Source: Blastococcus sp. URHD0036 (GTDB lineage Bacteria > Actinomycetota > Actinomycetes > Mycobacteriales > Geodermatophilaceae). Taken from it: a DNA stretch of 64,000 bases. Below are positions 10,356-14,080 of this stretch, piece after piece (the stretch's first letter is position 1; the number at the start of each line of letters is the position of its first letter). The stretch is taken from positions 62,001-126,000 of the forward strand of contig NZ_JNIK01000011.1 in the NCBI RefSeq assembly GCF_000701365.1, written 5' to 3'. Below the pieces are notes generated by a model, which saw nothing but the letters and a program-made list of their open reading frames with translations, did not search any database and was not told the origin of the DNA. The position numbers were made by a program, and so were the translations under genes.

Positions 10356-10721
10356 CGCGTGTTGATCGAGCCGTTCCGCGGCTCGGGGAGTTAGACGACT
10401 CCCTCCGGGTTGGCCCGGCGATCACCGTGGGCTGGATCGAGAGAGCGAGGCGCGCCACGGTCCGCCGGCGCCTCTGTCGGGACCCCGTCGGTGGGTCGCC
10501 TGGGGAGGGCGGATCTCTCCACGGGAAGCAGCACCCGCGTCGGCATCGCGCTCCGCACGCGCCGGGGCAGTCCTATCGCATGCGCCCAGCTGTCCCTAAG
10601 GGCGGCCTATGGGACACCCCACCGGGCCCGGCGAGGGTAGCCGCGACAGCGCGGGGCTCGGAGGCTTCGACCAGCATGGAACATGAGGGCCTGGGCGGTC
10701 ATTCCGAGGCGGGAGTTTCCG
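10356..10721. other. Gene-free stretch leading into the repeat-punctuated island
   Basis: I see no convincing gene here. The open frames on both strands lack a ribosome binding site and protein-like composition. A small stem-loop (GGGGAGT/ACTCCCT, about 10386-10405) and the first island repeat (10592-10615) are the only structures recognised. Confidence 0.5.
10592..10615 (+). repeat. Island repeat copy 1 (variant)
   Basis: GTCCCTAAGG then GCGGCCTATGGGAC, an imperfect palindrome with GTCCC/GGGAC ends. It shares the GTCCCTAAG left half with copies 2-5 but has AGGGCGGCCT in the centre, like the partial copies at 11654 and 12660. Confidence 0.65.
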
Positions 10722-11264
10722 GTGGTTAGACGGCGAAGTGAGACGGCAATCCCGTCGGACCCTGTTGTCGCAATTGAAAAGTTGTTTGGAGACCTCACCC
10801 CGGATCAGCGCGTCTGGTTCGGCCAGGGACTTCTGGGATTGGTTCTGCTCGCAGGGTCGTCTCCCGTAGAGCTCGCCGTGCCGCTGGTCCGATTCGTGGG
10901 TGGACGGCGGGGAATCCAAACAGGGGCGGCCCTGGGGAGTCTGCTCTGGTTCCTGGCGGGCCGCGCCTACTCGGGGGCCATGCTGCGCCAGCTCATCGCG
11001 GAAGGCACGACCAGTGCGGACCCCGATCACGAGAGCTGGTACGAGCGTTACGACCGCTTGATCACCCGGCTTCTCTTCTCCGGCGCAGTCTGGCTGCCCT
11101 CCGCAGGTGCAGTTCTGCCCACGGTTGTGTTGCGTAAGCGGTCCCCACTGTGGGGCCTCGCGCTATGGCTTGTGGTACGGCTCTGCGCCGTGACCGTCCT
11201 GGCGGTCGATGCTTCTCGCTTGAAGAAGCGTCAGGAAGCGCAAGCTGCGGTCACTAGCGAGTGA
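10722..11264 (+). CDS. Hypothetical membrane protein, first island gene
   Basis: The family is not recognised. It has about 180 residues with three to four hydrophobic stretches: WFGQGLLGLVLLAGSSPVELAV, GALLWFLAG-like, WLPSAGAVLPTVV, and LALWLVVRLCAVTVLAV near the end. A charged, Lys/Arg-rich tail follows. Codon use is visibly richer in A/T at third positions than in the flanking polysaccharide genes, suggesting a different origin. The GTG at 10722 has GGGAG about 7 nt upstream; the ATG at 10683 would add 13 residues but has no ribosome binding site. The TGA stop abuts island repeat copy 2. No function is proposed. Confidence 0.6.
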   Translation: MVRRRSETAIPSDPVVAIEKLFGDLTPDQRVWFGQGLLGLVLLAGSSPVELAVPLVRFVGGRRGIQTGAALGSLLWFLAGRAYSGAMLRQLIAEGTTSADPDHESWYERYDRLITRLLFSGAVWLPSAGAVLPTVVLRKRSPLWGLALWLVVRLCAVTVLAVDASRLKKRQEAQAAVTSE

Positions 11265-11286
11265 CCCCAAGTGGGCCGCTCAGAGC
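11263..11286 (+). repeat. Island repeat copy 2
   Basis: GACCCCAAGTGGGCCGCTCA then GAGC. The core AAGTGGGCCGCTCAG is identical to copies 3 and 4. It overlaps the stop codon of the preceding gene by 2 nt. The following 20 nt (CGCGCGGACGGCTTGAT) also resemble the sequence right of copy 4. Confidence 0.75.
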
Positions 11287-11337
11287 GCGCGGACGGCTTG
11301 ATGACGCAGGTCCCCTCTGTACTGCAAAGCTCGCCAC

Positions 11338-11597
11338 ATGCTGGTTCGTGAGCTGATGGCCATCCTCGCCGAGGAGCATCCCGACTCCCCAATATCGGTA
11401 GAGGGGTCTGTCCTCATGGCGACTACCTCGTCCAGTACGACCTTGAGGTCACTCACGACGAGGGGCCGGCGCCTGACATTGAGGAGGTCGTCATCGCGTG
11501 GACCGCGACGTCTGAGGCTCAGCGTTTGGCCCGAGAGCGACAAGATCGCGGGCGCTCGGTGGATCAACCGGGGACCACGCAGCGGAGGCTGCCCTGA
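11338..11597 (+). pseudogene. Small orphan gene with an apparent -1 frameshift
   Basis: ATG 11338 opens a frame reading MLVRELMAILAEEHPDSPIS. After about 11400 protein-like sequence continues in the next frame as HGDYLVQYDLEVTHDEG, then APDIEEVVIAWTATSEAQRL, and ends at TGA 11595-11597. Adding one G to the GGGG run at 11403-11406 would join the two into one protein of about 87 residues. The N-terminus resembles small phage and actinobacterial proteins of the type MTVxELIxxLxxxPPDxPV, which have no known function. It may be a real mutation, a sequencing error in a homopolymer, or less likely programmed frameshifting. Island repeat copy 3 follows 13 nt after the stop. Confidence 0.5.
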
Positions 11598-11610
11598 GAG
11601 GTTCGCCGGT

Positions 11611-11634
11611 GTCCCTAAGTGGGCCGCTCAGGGC
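11611..11634 (+). repeat. Island repeat copy 3
   Basis: GTCCCTAAGTGGGCCGCTCA then GGGC. It lies between the convergent ends of the frameshifted gene and the minus-strand gene, whose TAG stop starts on its last base. The similarity to copy 5 continues to the right for about 60 nt. Confidence 0.8.
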
Positions 11635-12200
11635 TACGTGCCGTCGACGCCCGGAAGGCGACCTGAGGGACTTTCCAAATCGGCCGTTCGACGCGCCCAA
11701 CTGAGAAGCCGAAAGGGCGAAGTCCAATCGGGTCGTTGGAGATAGATGGCTGCGTCGTCAAGTTCGGTGTAGTCCGGGGGTGCGTCCGGAAGGCCGTCGA
11801 CGTGGACCTGATAACACGCGAACTCGGAAGCCGTAACGATCAGATCGCTGCCCCGCTCGACGCGCAGTCCCCAACGTAGAAGCCCGTCGGGTGTCGTCGA
11901 CAATGCCGAGATTCCCACTTCACGAGCGAACCGATCTCCGAGCCTGGGAAGGTCATGCGTGCCCAGCTCCCAGCTCACCGCCCGTACACGGCGCGCGACG
12001 ACCACACGAAGGTCCGGACCATCGATGATCATGGCACCGACGGTGGAGCGACCAGGGTCGAGTCGAACATCGAGAAGCTCGTGCCCCTCGAGAAACTCGC
12101 CTCCGAGCTCATTCCAGGGGCGAGGGGCCACGTCGGCAACGACCTCGTACGTCGGCCACAACAGGTCCGTCAGGGTCGCCAAGCTGCACCTCCCGAGCAC
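11634..12200 (-). CDS. Hypothetical protein, third island gene
   Basis: I do not recognise the family. It is about 188 residues, soluble, with a mixed alpha/beta look and no signal peptide or membrane segment. Stretches such as VGAMIIDGPDLRVVVARRV, RWGLRVERGSDLIVTASEFA and PDAPPDYTELDDAAIYLQRP read like a genuine folded protein. ATG 12200 is the longest start. A TTG at 12182 has GGGAGG just upstream and may be the real one. It is the only island gene on the minus strand, so its stop rather than its start meets repeat copy 3. Confidence 0.55.
   Translation of the reverse strand: MLGRCSLATLTDLLWPTYEVVADVAPRPWNELGGEFLEGHELLDVRLDPGRSTVGAMIIDGPDLRVVVARRVRAVSWELGTHDLPRLGDRFAREVGISALSTTPDGLLRWGLRVERGSDLIVTASEFACYQVHVDGLPDAPPDYTELDDAAIYLQRPDWTSPFRLLSWARRTADLESPSGRLPGVDGT
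11654..11671 (+). repeat. Island repeat, partial copy
   Basis: AAGGCGACCTGAGGGAC resembles the right half of copy 1 (AAGGGCGGCCTATGGGAC). It lies 20 nt right of copy 3, with the same spacing as the partial copy after copy 5, so copies 3 and 5 look like about 60-nt composite units. Confidence 0.45.
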
Positions 12201-12259
12201 GCGGATTGCCGAGCCTACGTTCGACGTGCCAGTCGTCTGGGGCGGTTACTGGTCGAAGT

Positions 12260-12284
12260 CGCCCTAAGTGGGCCGCTCAGGGCG
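12260..12284 (+). repeat. Island repeat copy 4
   Basis: CGCCCTAAGTGGGCCGCTCA then GGGCG. The 6-nt ends are complementary (CGCCCT/AGGGCG) and the core is identical to copy 3. It lies 60 nt upstream of the minus-strand island gene. Confidence 0.8.
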
Positions 12285-12419
12285 CCGGAGGCTCGATCGC
12301 TATTCTCAACCCCAAGCGCTCCGTTTGGAGTGACATGGCCGCCCGCTGTCAGGCGCGGCGCCGCGGGGTCGGGCCGGATGTGAGCCGGCCGAGCCCCCTG
12401 CATCGAGAGATGCATCGCG
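12285..12419. other. Spacer before the zinc-ribbon gene
   Basis: There is no gene here. TTTGGAG is visible, and an A/T-richer patch (TATTCTCAA at about 12300) could be promoter sequence for the following small gene, but no clear -35/-10 pair can be assigned. Confidence 0.4.
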
Positions 12420-12629
12420 ATGTCGGGTTGCGTCAAGAAGTGCTATCCGTCCCGAGCTGCTGCCGTGCGGGCACTCGAGGCGATACAGGAGCGTTGTAGG
12501 GAACGGGATCGGAAGGCGCCGAGAGGCGCCTACCTCTGCCCCTCGTGCCGAGGGCAGTGGCACTTGACTTCCAAGTCGGCGACGCAGACCCCGCCATGGC
12601 AAAGAAGGCGCCAGCCGACCGTTCCTTAG
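12420..12629 (+). CDS. Small zinc-ribbon protein with CPxC-WHLTS motif
   Basis: A 69-residue basic protein with Cys pairs C4/C8 and C40/C43, then W47-H48 within AYLCPSCRGQWHLTSK. The Y-x-CPxC-x3-WHLTS signature recurs in small actinobacterial and actinophage proteins and suggests a one-zinc ribbon, probably nucleic-acid binding; that role is inference. A helix (RAAAVRALEAIQERCRER) links the Cys pairs. The ATG at 12420 is followed immediately by C4. The stop codon TAG lies inside island repeat copy 5, mirroring the first island gene. The gene is too short and compositionally atypical to place further. Confidence 0.7.
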   Translation: MSGCVKKCYPSRAAAVRALEAIQERCRERDRKAPRGAYLCPSCRGQWHLTSKSATQTPPWQRRRQPTVP

Positions 12630-12645
12630 TGGGCCGCTCTGGGAC
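12621..12645 (+). repeat. Island repeat copy 5
   Basis: GTTCCTTAGTGGGCCGCTCT then GGGAC, with GT..CC/GG..AC ends. The stop codon of the zinc-ribbon gene lies within it. It aligns with copy 3 over about 60 nt including the downstream CTGCCG-CG segment. Confidence 0.75.
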
Positions 12646-12659
12646 ACCTGCCGGCGCAC

Positions 12660-12682
12660 CGTGAGGGCGGCCTGAGGGCGAC
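12660..12682 (+). repeat. Island repeat, partial copy at the island edge
   Basis: CGTGAGGGCGGCCTGAGGGC matches the centre of copy 1 (AGGGCGGCCTATGGG). It ends 1-2 nt from the tRNA-like sequence. Confidence 0.5.
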
Positions 12683-12762
12683 TCAGCGCTGAGGGATTCG
12701 AACCGGCGTCCCTGCGTCACACAGCCGAGATGTCGCTACCTCGCATGCTCGACGGCATGCTG
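12683..12762 (-). pseudogene. Degenerate tRNA-like sequence (possible old attachment site)
   Basis: Read on the minus strand it carries a T-loop GGTTCGAATCC, D-stem GTCG/CGAC (12753-12750 with 12735-12732) with a GG-containing 14-nt D-loop, and partly pairing acceptor ends (CAGC/GCTG). The anticodon and T stems do not pair, so it is not a functional tRNA. It lies at the junction between the island and the Wzy gene, where an integrated element would leave a tRNA 3' remnant. Chance resemblance is possible. Confidence 0.3.
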
Positions 12763-12832
12763 AACCGCGTCGACGAGCCGGCCCCAAGCCATGTTGCACC
12801 CGTTTCCGGATGGATGTAGTGACCGTCGCGCC

Positions 12833-14080
12833 TCAGCCGGCGACTGAGGACGACGGCGCGAGGACACGCGGCCGCTCCGGAGCTCCGCCGGAAACGTCGT
12901 CGTCCGACAGTTCGTCCGTGAGACGGCGACGGGAGCCGCCCTCGACCAGCAGCGAGACGGCCAGGAACGCGAGGAACTCCGGCGTCGCGTCGAACAGCCC
13001 GCTCTCCAGCACGCTGCGCCCGAGGACGAACACCAGCAGCCCGAGGAACAGGGCCCGGTGGGCGCGCGGCGCCTGGAAGGCCCCGCGGAGAGCCCACAGC
13101 GCCCACAGCCCGGCCACGAGGCAGCCGACGAGGCCGATCTGGACGAGGACGGAGACCCAGCTGCTGTCCAGCGGCTGCTCGGTCCAGTACTGCCCCTTGA
13201 CCGGGATGATCTTGACCGACAGGCCCCCGCCGAAGGCGAGCTGCCACCGGTCGTCGGCCCACGTGGTCGCGGCGTCCCAGGCGATGAAGCGGGACTGCAC
13301 CGTGCTCGTGCCCTCGCCGTCGCGCTCGAGGAAGCTCCCGAGCGCGTCGGTGCCGAAGACGGCGACGGTCGCGGCGGCCCCGGTCAGGAGCGCGCCGACC
13401 ACCAGCCCGACCCGGGCGCGGCGCATGTGCAGCGCCATGATCAGCAGCGCGGGGACCAGCATGAGCAGCGCGGTGCGAGAGCCGGTGAACCAGACGACGC
13501 CGAGGGCCACCACGATGACCGCGGCGGCGCCGGCGCCCGCCGTCCCCATCGTGATCCGCCACCCGGCGTACAGCACGACCAGGCAGGAGAGCAGAGCGAG
13601 CGTGTTCGGGTCGACCTCCGGGAAACCGCCGGCGAGCCGGCCGCTGGACAGCGTCGACAGGCCGGTGACCGCCGCCACACCGCCGATCACGGCACAGGCC
13701 CGCGCCAGCGCGGCGAAGAACTCCAGCGCGGTGTAGCAGCGCAGCAGCAGGACGACCGTGAGAGCCAGGATCGTCACGCGGACGGCGACGACCCCGCCCG
13801 CGACCAGTCGCCCGTCGGTCAGGGCGCCGAGCACCGACGCGGTGAGCAGCGCGCCCAGCACCCACAACGTCCCGGTGCCCACCCGCAGGTCCCGACGGCG
13901 GGTGCCCGCGTACGCCACCACCAGGGCGACCAGGCTCAGCGCGCCCTTCGCCGCGACGACCGGGTCCAGGGAACCCTCGAAGTAGGTGCCGCGCCGCCAG
14001 CCCACCGTGGTGAGCACGAGCAGGAGCATGCACACGAGGAGCCGGACCGGGATCCGCTCCGAGCGGCGGGCGGCGCTCAC
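12833..14080 (-). CDS. O-antigen ligase/polymerase (Wzy-like) membrane protein
   Basis: A polytopic membrane protein of 415 residues with about 11 hydrophobic segments and one long extracytoplasmic loop. The loop and its flanks carry the Wzy_C signatures: DPNTLALLSCLVVLYAG, WFTGSRTALLMLVPALL, and an R-x3-W pattern (SRFIAWDAATTW). The Wzy/WaaL family joins lipid-linked repeat units at the outer face of the membrane. The GTG start at 14080 overlaps the stop of the flippase gene (GTGA), so translation is coupled. It is the last gene of the five-gene coupled operon and ends in a short Ser/Pro-rich tail. Polymerase versus ligase cannot be decided from sequence, but polymerase fits the presence of Wzx and Wzz. 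Confidence 0.83.
   Translation of the reverse strand: MSAARRSERIPVRLLVCMLLLVLTTVGWRRGTYFEGSLDPVVAAKGALSLVALVVAYAGTRRRDLRVGTGTLWVLGALLTASVLGALTDGRLVAGGVVAVRVTILALTVVLLLRCYTALEFFAALARACAVIGGVAAVTGLSTLSSGRLAGGFPEVDPNTLALLSCLVVLYAGWRITMGTAGAGAAAVIVVALGVVWFTGSRTALLMLVPALLIMALHMRRARVGLVVGALLTGAAATVAVFGTDALGSFLERDGEGTSTVQSRFIAWDAATTWADDRWQLAFGGGLSVKIIPVKGQYWTEQPLDSSWVSVLVQIGLVGCLVAGLWALWALRGAFQAPRAHRALFLGLLVFVLGRSVLESGLFDATPEFLAFLAVSLLVEGGSRRRLTDELSDDDVSGGAPERPRVLAPSSSVAG

Follow-up and report, generated by a model that had tools for sequence, protein, structure and literature searches.

Integrons and CALIN are known as co-directed arrays of cassettes, mostly of one gene and about 0.5 kb, that are delimited by short boundary sites. 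Many such arrays lack an integrase, the same cassettes are found in several genomes and encode mostly proteins of unknown function, and elements of the IS110/IS1111 type insert into the boundary site. The pdif modules of Acinetobacter, on which XerC/XerD act, are likewise bounded by short sites with inverted arms that serve a Xer-type tyrosine recombinase, and these modules alternate in orientation. In the Cre/loxP and Flp/FRT systems two inverted arms surround a short asymmetric centre that sets the direction of the site, and in shufflons the gene of a tyrosine recombinase (Rci) adjoins an array of short repeated sites.

Resemblances to all of these systems are combined in an island of small genes within a 64-kb stretch of DNA from Blastococcus sp. 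URHD0036, referred to here as the window, which an earlier note had read either as an unnamed cassette system or as a family of mobile short repeats. The tests described below favour the cassette system. We propose, with a probability of roughly three in four, that the island represents a small array of mobile cassettes, each with a single gene, that would be moved at double-stranded core sites of a tyrosine recombinase, the candidate enzyme being XerC/D-like. That this is a cassette system is well supported, and the identity of the enzyme that would drive it is something that we infer. In the literature that was covered, subscription papers and preprints being outside that coverage, no account of a system of this kind in Geodermatophilaceae was found.

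Repeats and genes of the window island

Alignment with relatives defines a full repeat of 29 nt, GTGTCCCTNAG-TGGGCCG-CTCNGGGACAC, rather than the 21–25 nt first estimated, in which two inverted 11-nt arms flank an asymmetric and nearly invariant 7-nt centre, TGGGCCG. The repeats are genuine, and we take them to be site-specific recombination sites. With up to three mismatches allowed, the core CCTAAGTGGGCCGCTCAG matches the window four times, against a chance expectation of 0.06; all four matches are on the plus strand and inside the island, at 11.2–12.7 kb, which agrees with the earlier observation that the core is restricted to the island. The common orientation that had been described also holds. 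The count of five copies does not: there are four full sites and one collapsed site (Table 1), the latter having been taken for the first copy, at about position 10592. In the collapsed site, arm 1 (CTGTCCCTAAG) is joined straight to a third half-site (GGCGGCCTATGGGACAC), the centre and arm 2 being absent. The third half-site, GGCGGCYTNNGGGACA, follows 79 of the 269 sites collected from the family, and its spacing from the site is nearly always 2 nt or 17–22 nt. The partial copies that had been reported, together with the 60-nt extensions of copies 3 and 5, are real in this sense and correspond to third half-sites located 18–19 nt past the sites at 11609 and 12619.

Table 1. Predicted recombination sites, cassette genes and variable region of the island (positions in the window)
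Feature	Position	Strand	Description
Collapsed recombination site	10590..10617	+	CTGTCCCTAAGGGCGGCCTATGGGACAC; parts defined from relatives
Recombination site 1	11261..11289	+	GTGACCCCAAG-TGGGCCG-CTCAGAGCGCG
Recombination site 2	11609..11637	+	GTGTCCCTAAG-TGGGCCG-CTCAGGGCTAC
Third half-site of site 2	11657..11672	+	GGCGACCTGAGGGACT, 19-nt spacing
Recombination site 3	12258..12286	+	GTCGCCCTAAG-TGGGCCG-CTCAGGGCGCC
Recombination site 4	12619..12647	+	CCGTTCCTTAG-TGGGCCG-CTCTGGGACAC
Third half-site of site 4	12666..12681	+	GGCGGCCTGAGGGCGA, 18-nt spacing
Cassette gene 1	10683..11264	+	193 aa, without Pfam match; stop codon within site 11261
Cassette gene 2	11338..11597	+	Frameshifted
Cassette gene 3	11634..12200	-	188 aa; stop codon within arm 2 of site 2
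Cassette gene 4	12420..12629	+	69 aa, Cys-rich; stop within arm 1 of site 4
Variable region of window locus	10360..12888	.	Both flanks kept in congeners G111 and G113, the stretch itself not

The stop codons of three of the genes lie inside sites, in keeping with the earlier remark that genes end at the repeats, and the genes are indeed richer in A/T than their neighbours, the units having a G+C content of 64–67% against 74–75% in the flanks. Candidatus Blastococcus massiliensis (L108) has an intact homologue of gene 2 (MLVRELRALLAQEHPESP...) that is flanked by sites, and the nearest homologues of gene 4 are found among or beside sites in two further genomes (G103 and G088); gene 3 has no relative among the 115 genomes of the family. 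No tyrosine recombinase is encoded within the 64-kb window, where the absence of an integrase had already been noted.

The two genes that flank the island are conserved in three congeners (G110, G111 and G113). In G110 they adjoin, with no gene between them, so that the locus is empty, and in G111 and G113 the space between them is occupied by unrelated ordinary genes with no sites; as the orthologous loci in these last two genomes are site-free, the gain of single units is unreadable at the window locus. With no gene at the locus in one congener and other genes there in two, the island is a strain- or species-specific insertion on this comparison, and the situation that had been raised against its mobility, an island conserved unchanged in all relatives, is not the one observed.

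Distribution, shared cassettes and the position of the crossover

Sites are present in 78 of 115 genomes of the Geodermatophilaceae, bacteria of soil, deserts and stone, and the reversed pattern in almost none. When the search was extended to 399 genomes of the order, 77 of them Geodermatophilaceae, only 2 of the 322 genomes outside the family carried a site, once each; none was found in viral contigs. The genome that contains the window has site clusters on contigs C19 (150–157 kb) and C3 and single sites on C1. At a threshold defined as the score never reached by the reversed motif, 74 fully read loci yielded 269 sites and no reversed motif. Neighbouring sites no more than 2.5 kb apart have the same orientation in 162 cases and opposite orientations in 12, and the quartiles of the site-to-site units are 372/537/1017 bp.

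Homologous units recur, with unrelated neighbours each time, in different arrays, in different genomes and even in different genera. One unit is shared between G089 and G086 (86%); another is present in two G000 copies (96%) and has relatives in G099, in a Geodermatophilus (G046) and in a MAG of Blastococcus (G036); further ones are common to two arrays of G089, to G054 and G089, and to G064 and G053. Since the best-conserved shared unit inside G000 is at 96% and not 100%, the movement need not be very recent. The host's codon usage proved a poor guide to the cargo, whose composition is foreign (67% versus 73% G+C): scoring by it detected a gene in only 36 of 158 units. The cargo was therefore read from the ORFs conserved between paired units. 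Each full-length unit pair contains one conserved ORF, on either strand, with its stop located −11 to +60 nt from the site. As in integrons, the sites delimit cassettes of one ORF each, arranged in tandem. Pfam gave no confident name for any of 10 cargo proteins.

The comparison of the same locus in relatives that the earlier note had suggested was made between species, with one genome per species, and shows flanks that are kept and a cassette content that changes. G000 and G111 have one locus with both flanks in common and with 3 versus 1 sites; G064 and G053 have one with 8 versus 2 sites; and at a common locus of G089 and G094, with 10 versus 4 sites, homology stops beside a site in both genomes. 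In this one-genome-per-species set no circle, junction read or rearrangement within a species was observed. The note had also named, as support for its claim, a gain of units with the repeat at their ends, and this is seen in homologous single-gene units that end inside sites among unrelated neighbours.

The point at which homology ends was used to locate the crossover. It falls inside the site in both loci in 25 of 95 cases, against 0.07 with shifted site positions, the former figure being somewhat inflated by the tendency of conserved sites to draw alignment ends towards themselves. In 43 site pairs with only the right flank in common, identity is above background in arm 2 (p=0.0002) and at background in arm 1, and in 35 pairs with only the left flank in common it is above background in arm 1 (p=0.002) and at background in arm 2, the pairs being partly non-independent owing to units that are present more than once; both flanks are shared in only 3 pairs. 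It follows from this one-sided identity that the two ends of a cassette lie between the arms, which is where strand exchange in the 7-nt centre would place them. Cassette boundaries, the crossover region, the direction of the sites, the sharing of cassettes between species and the variability of loci are, in this way, established by comparison of genomes.

The same data bear on whether the sites could be REP-, MITE- or terminator-like palindromes, that is, short mobile or regulatory repeats gathering at gene ends. Such elements are also short palindromes at gene ends, and REP sequences are, like the sites, targeted by IS110-type elements (PMC11187229). Nevertheless, there are only about 1–18 sites per genome, clustered and co-oriented, instead of the genome-wide, REP-like scatter that had been considered; homologous segments begin within one site and finish within the following one; paired sites share a flank on one side only; and the stem lacks covariation (see below). 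We consider this explanation very improbable.

Covariation between the arms is absent both for the short stem (z=1.1) and for a long stem made of arm 1 and the third half-site (z=−1.7), and the full sites of the window show no unusual folding relative to shuffled DNA (z about −1 to +0.8). Because the arms neither covary nor fold unusually, the sites are considered to be double-stranded, unlike attC, the arms behaving like half-sites of duplex DNA that are recognised by their sequence. An attC-like fold formed through the long stem was rejected, its pairing being no better than that of shuffles.

If the array were instead an ordinary integron array (CALIN) whose degenerate attC sites are acted on by IntI, the layout would be the same, with cassettes of about 0.5 kb that each hold one gene, ORFs without known function and arrays free of an integrase, and it would also offer a target to an IS110-family element. 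However, the attC boxes RYYYAAC...GTTRRRY are absent from the site consensus, as the earlier note had found for the GTTRRRY core. The site is a palindrome of 11-7-11 layout that is conserved in sequence without covariation, structure being what is conserved in attC; the crossover is central, in the middle of the palindrome and not at R'; the genes lie on either strand; and the host belongs to a phylum, the Actinobacteria, in which complete integrons were not found with IntegronFinder 2.0 (PMC9024848). Together with the properties of the recombinase given below, these differences leave very little probability for an integron proper.

The sites are also the target of an insertion sequence. An IS110-family element splits the sites at one exact position, TGTCCCTRA/IS/...GGATGTCT/RAGTGGGCCG, with insertions in G000, G032 and G035, one of the copies in G035 being inside a reversed third half-site, and a partial copy in G041. 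Related elements target the attC sites of integron cassettes as well as REP sequences (PMC11187229).

A candidate recombinase

A search of the strain's own genome for PF00589 located a tyrosine recombinase inside the array on C19 (E=4.5e-17). Its catalytic R-K-HxxR-H-Y residues are intact (R140, K166, H229, R232, H255 and Y265 of a 289-aa core), and orthologues with 63–91% identity are encoded in other genera. The G000 gene is at L061:10321-11391 on the minus strand, and its true start is probably internal. The protein is XerC/XerD-like, yet it scores far under the XerC/XerD cut-offs (97 versus 335 bits), and against the integron integrase model TIGR02249 it reaches 50 bits, the cut-off being 265. 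The distance between the catalytic K and H is 63 and the IntI insert is absent, which again speaks against IntI; the corresponding distances are about 106 for IntI1 and 72 for XerD.

The earlier proposal to look for a tyrosine recombinase with the same repeat beside it was borne out elsewhere in the strain's own genome and in three relatives. In G000, G051, G054 and G045 the stop codon of the recombinase is located 4–37 nt from a site in inverted orientation, and the other flanks differ among the four genomes. A further site is present about 182 nt upstream of the recombinase in G000 and G054, and in G000 this upstream site is interrupted by the IS110-family element. In integrons, cassettes enter at a primary site, attI, next to the integrase, and a site placed like these may be a counterpart. 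When the proteins encoded no more than 400 nt from a site were all clustered in an unbiased way, the recombinase family ranked first.

The host's own XerC and XerD could be thought to move the cassettes as dif-like (pdif) modules, given that genes are placed between palindromic Xer-type sites of 28–29 nt and that the recombinase is XerC/D-like. Against this, the centre has 7 nt and not 6, the sites contain no dif sequence, and the genome's dif-like sequence (GATAATGCACATTATGT, at C14:326477) is distinct from them; the sites within an array share one orientation, the arrays are chromosomal, and the recombinase is dedicated and array-linked. An origin as pdif modules is thus hardly probable.

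The recombinase adjoins a site in only 4 of the approximately 75 array loci examined. The orthologues of G017 and G033 are not close to any site, and the G033 copy seems to have lost catalytic residues. Given this rarity beside arrays, most arrays would need an enzyme in trans, an enzyme since lost, or another enzyme, and the recombinase-free ones, including that of the window, may be served in trans or stranded. An alternative is that the cassette system is real and is driven by another tyrosine recombinase in trans or by the host's XerC/D, the recombinase in the array being cargo or a recent occupant. It would explain why most arrays lack an adjacent recombinase of the candidate group and why site-rich genomes such as G089 are devoid of a close orthologue, and other tyrosine recombinases do occur 0.3–5 kb from some arrays. 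However, none of these directly adjoins a site and their groups are different ones, whereas the candidate is the top recurrent family near sites and its stop codon keeps its distance to the inverted site in four genomes with differing other flanks; arrays without an integrase are, in addition, common among integrons (CALIN). We therefore regard this alternative as unlikely, although it deserves to be taken seriously, and retain the XerC/D-like tyrosine recombinase as the best candidate for the enzyme.

Proposed mechanism and implications

In the proposed mechanism, each 11-nt arm would be bound by one recombinase monomer and strands would be exchanged in the TGGGCCG centre, the asymmetry of which would give every cassette of an array the same site orientation. 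The limits of a cassette would be the centres of two successive sites. The cassette would start, on its 5' side, with arm 2, usually accompanied by the third half-site; a single gene in either direction would follow, and arm 1 would close it on the 3' side. Two neighbouring sites would recombine to release a circle with one complete site, and recombination of this circle with any other site would insert the cassette there. The recombinase encoded on another contig of the same genome would act on the window island in trans. The circular intermediate, the identity of the enzyme, any current activity of the system and any benefit of its cargo are matters that we infer.

The arrangement departs from Cre/loxP and Flp/FRT in that many sites, distributed over a family, build arrays of genes, and in the third half-site at 2 or about 19 nt. 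It departs likewise from shufflons, in which the sites are inverted and permute the ends of one gene, since here direct sites carry separate genes between loci and species. The system would accordingly be a new variant of recombinase-driven cassette system, integron-like in its working and outside the integron family. Going further, we consider it on balance probable that it represents a second, independently evolved platform for gene capture equivalent to the integron, with an XerC/D-derived recombinase, simple double-stranded sites accompanied by a third half-site, one-gene cassettes that are assembled into arrays and exchanged throughout an actinobacterial family, and its own site-specific IS110 parasite.

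If this is true, a possible simple double-stranded cassette recombinase for high-GC hosts would be at hand, and a pool of small genes of unknown function that have been selected for mobility would be exposed. It becomes possible to test whether folded single-stranded attC sites are required for cassette arrays or are one route among others. The capture of gene cassettes would have arisen more than once, and a family of Actinobacteria would possess a functional equivalent of the integron made from other parts.

Recombination sites and an IS110-family element

In several genomes the recombination sites are interrupted by an IS110-family element, always at the same exact position within the site, except that one insertion lies in a reversed third half-site instead of a full site. 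The element is a parasite specific to the cassette sites. Across all array loci the third half-site, where present, nearly always sits either 2 nt or 17–22 nt past the 29-mer, two discrete distances that suggest two site subtypes.

A recombinase orthologue in another genome

The G033 orthologue of the XerC/D-like array recombinase has GNGG in place of GKGD and HALL in place of HALR, and appears to have lost catalytic residues; no recombination site lies near it.

Cassette genes and array ends

Features by locus
Feature	Position	Remark
IS110-family element	L061:11350-12880 (G000:C19)	within recombination site
IS110-family element	L117, L107 (n=2), L111	further copies
Array recombinase orthologue	L133:9184-10128 (G033)	
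Window cassette gene 2	window 11338-11597	
Paired cassettes	L105:7570-10436 (G043:C9)	
Large site-adjacent protein family	L157:10771; L162:11539; L149:13534; L173:8028	

A large protein family directly adjoins sites in four genomes; inspected only by eye, some or all of these array ends resemble DUF222/HNH (13E12-type) genes. Compared with its intact homologue in Blastococcus, cassette gene 2 carries a frameshift, reflecting either decay or sequencing error. In G043, two neighbouring cassettes encode diverged copies (61% identity) of one 412–440 aa protein of unassigned function, as if it had been captured twice, or duplicated and then retained.
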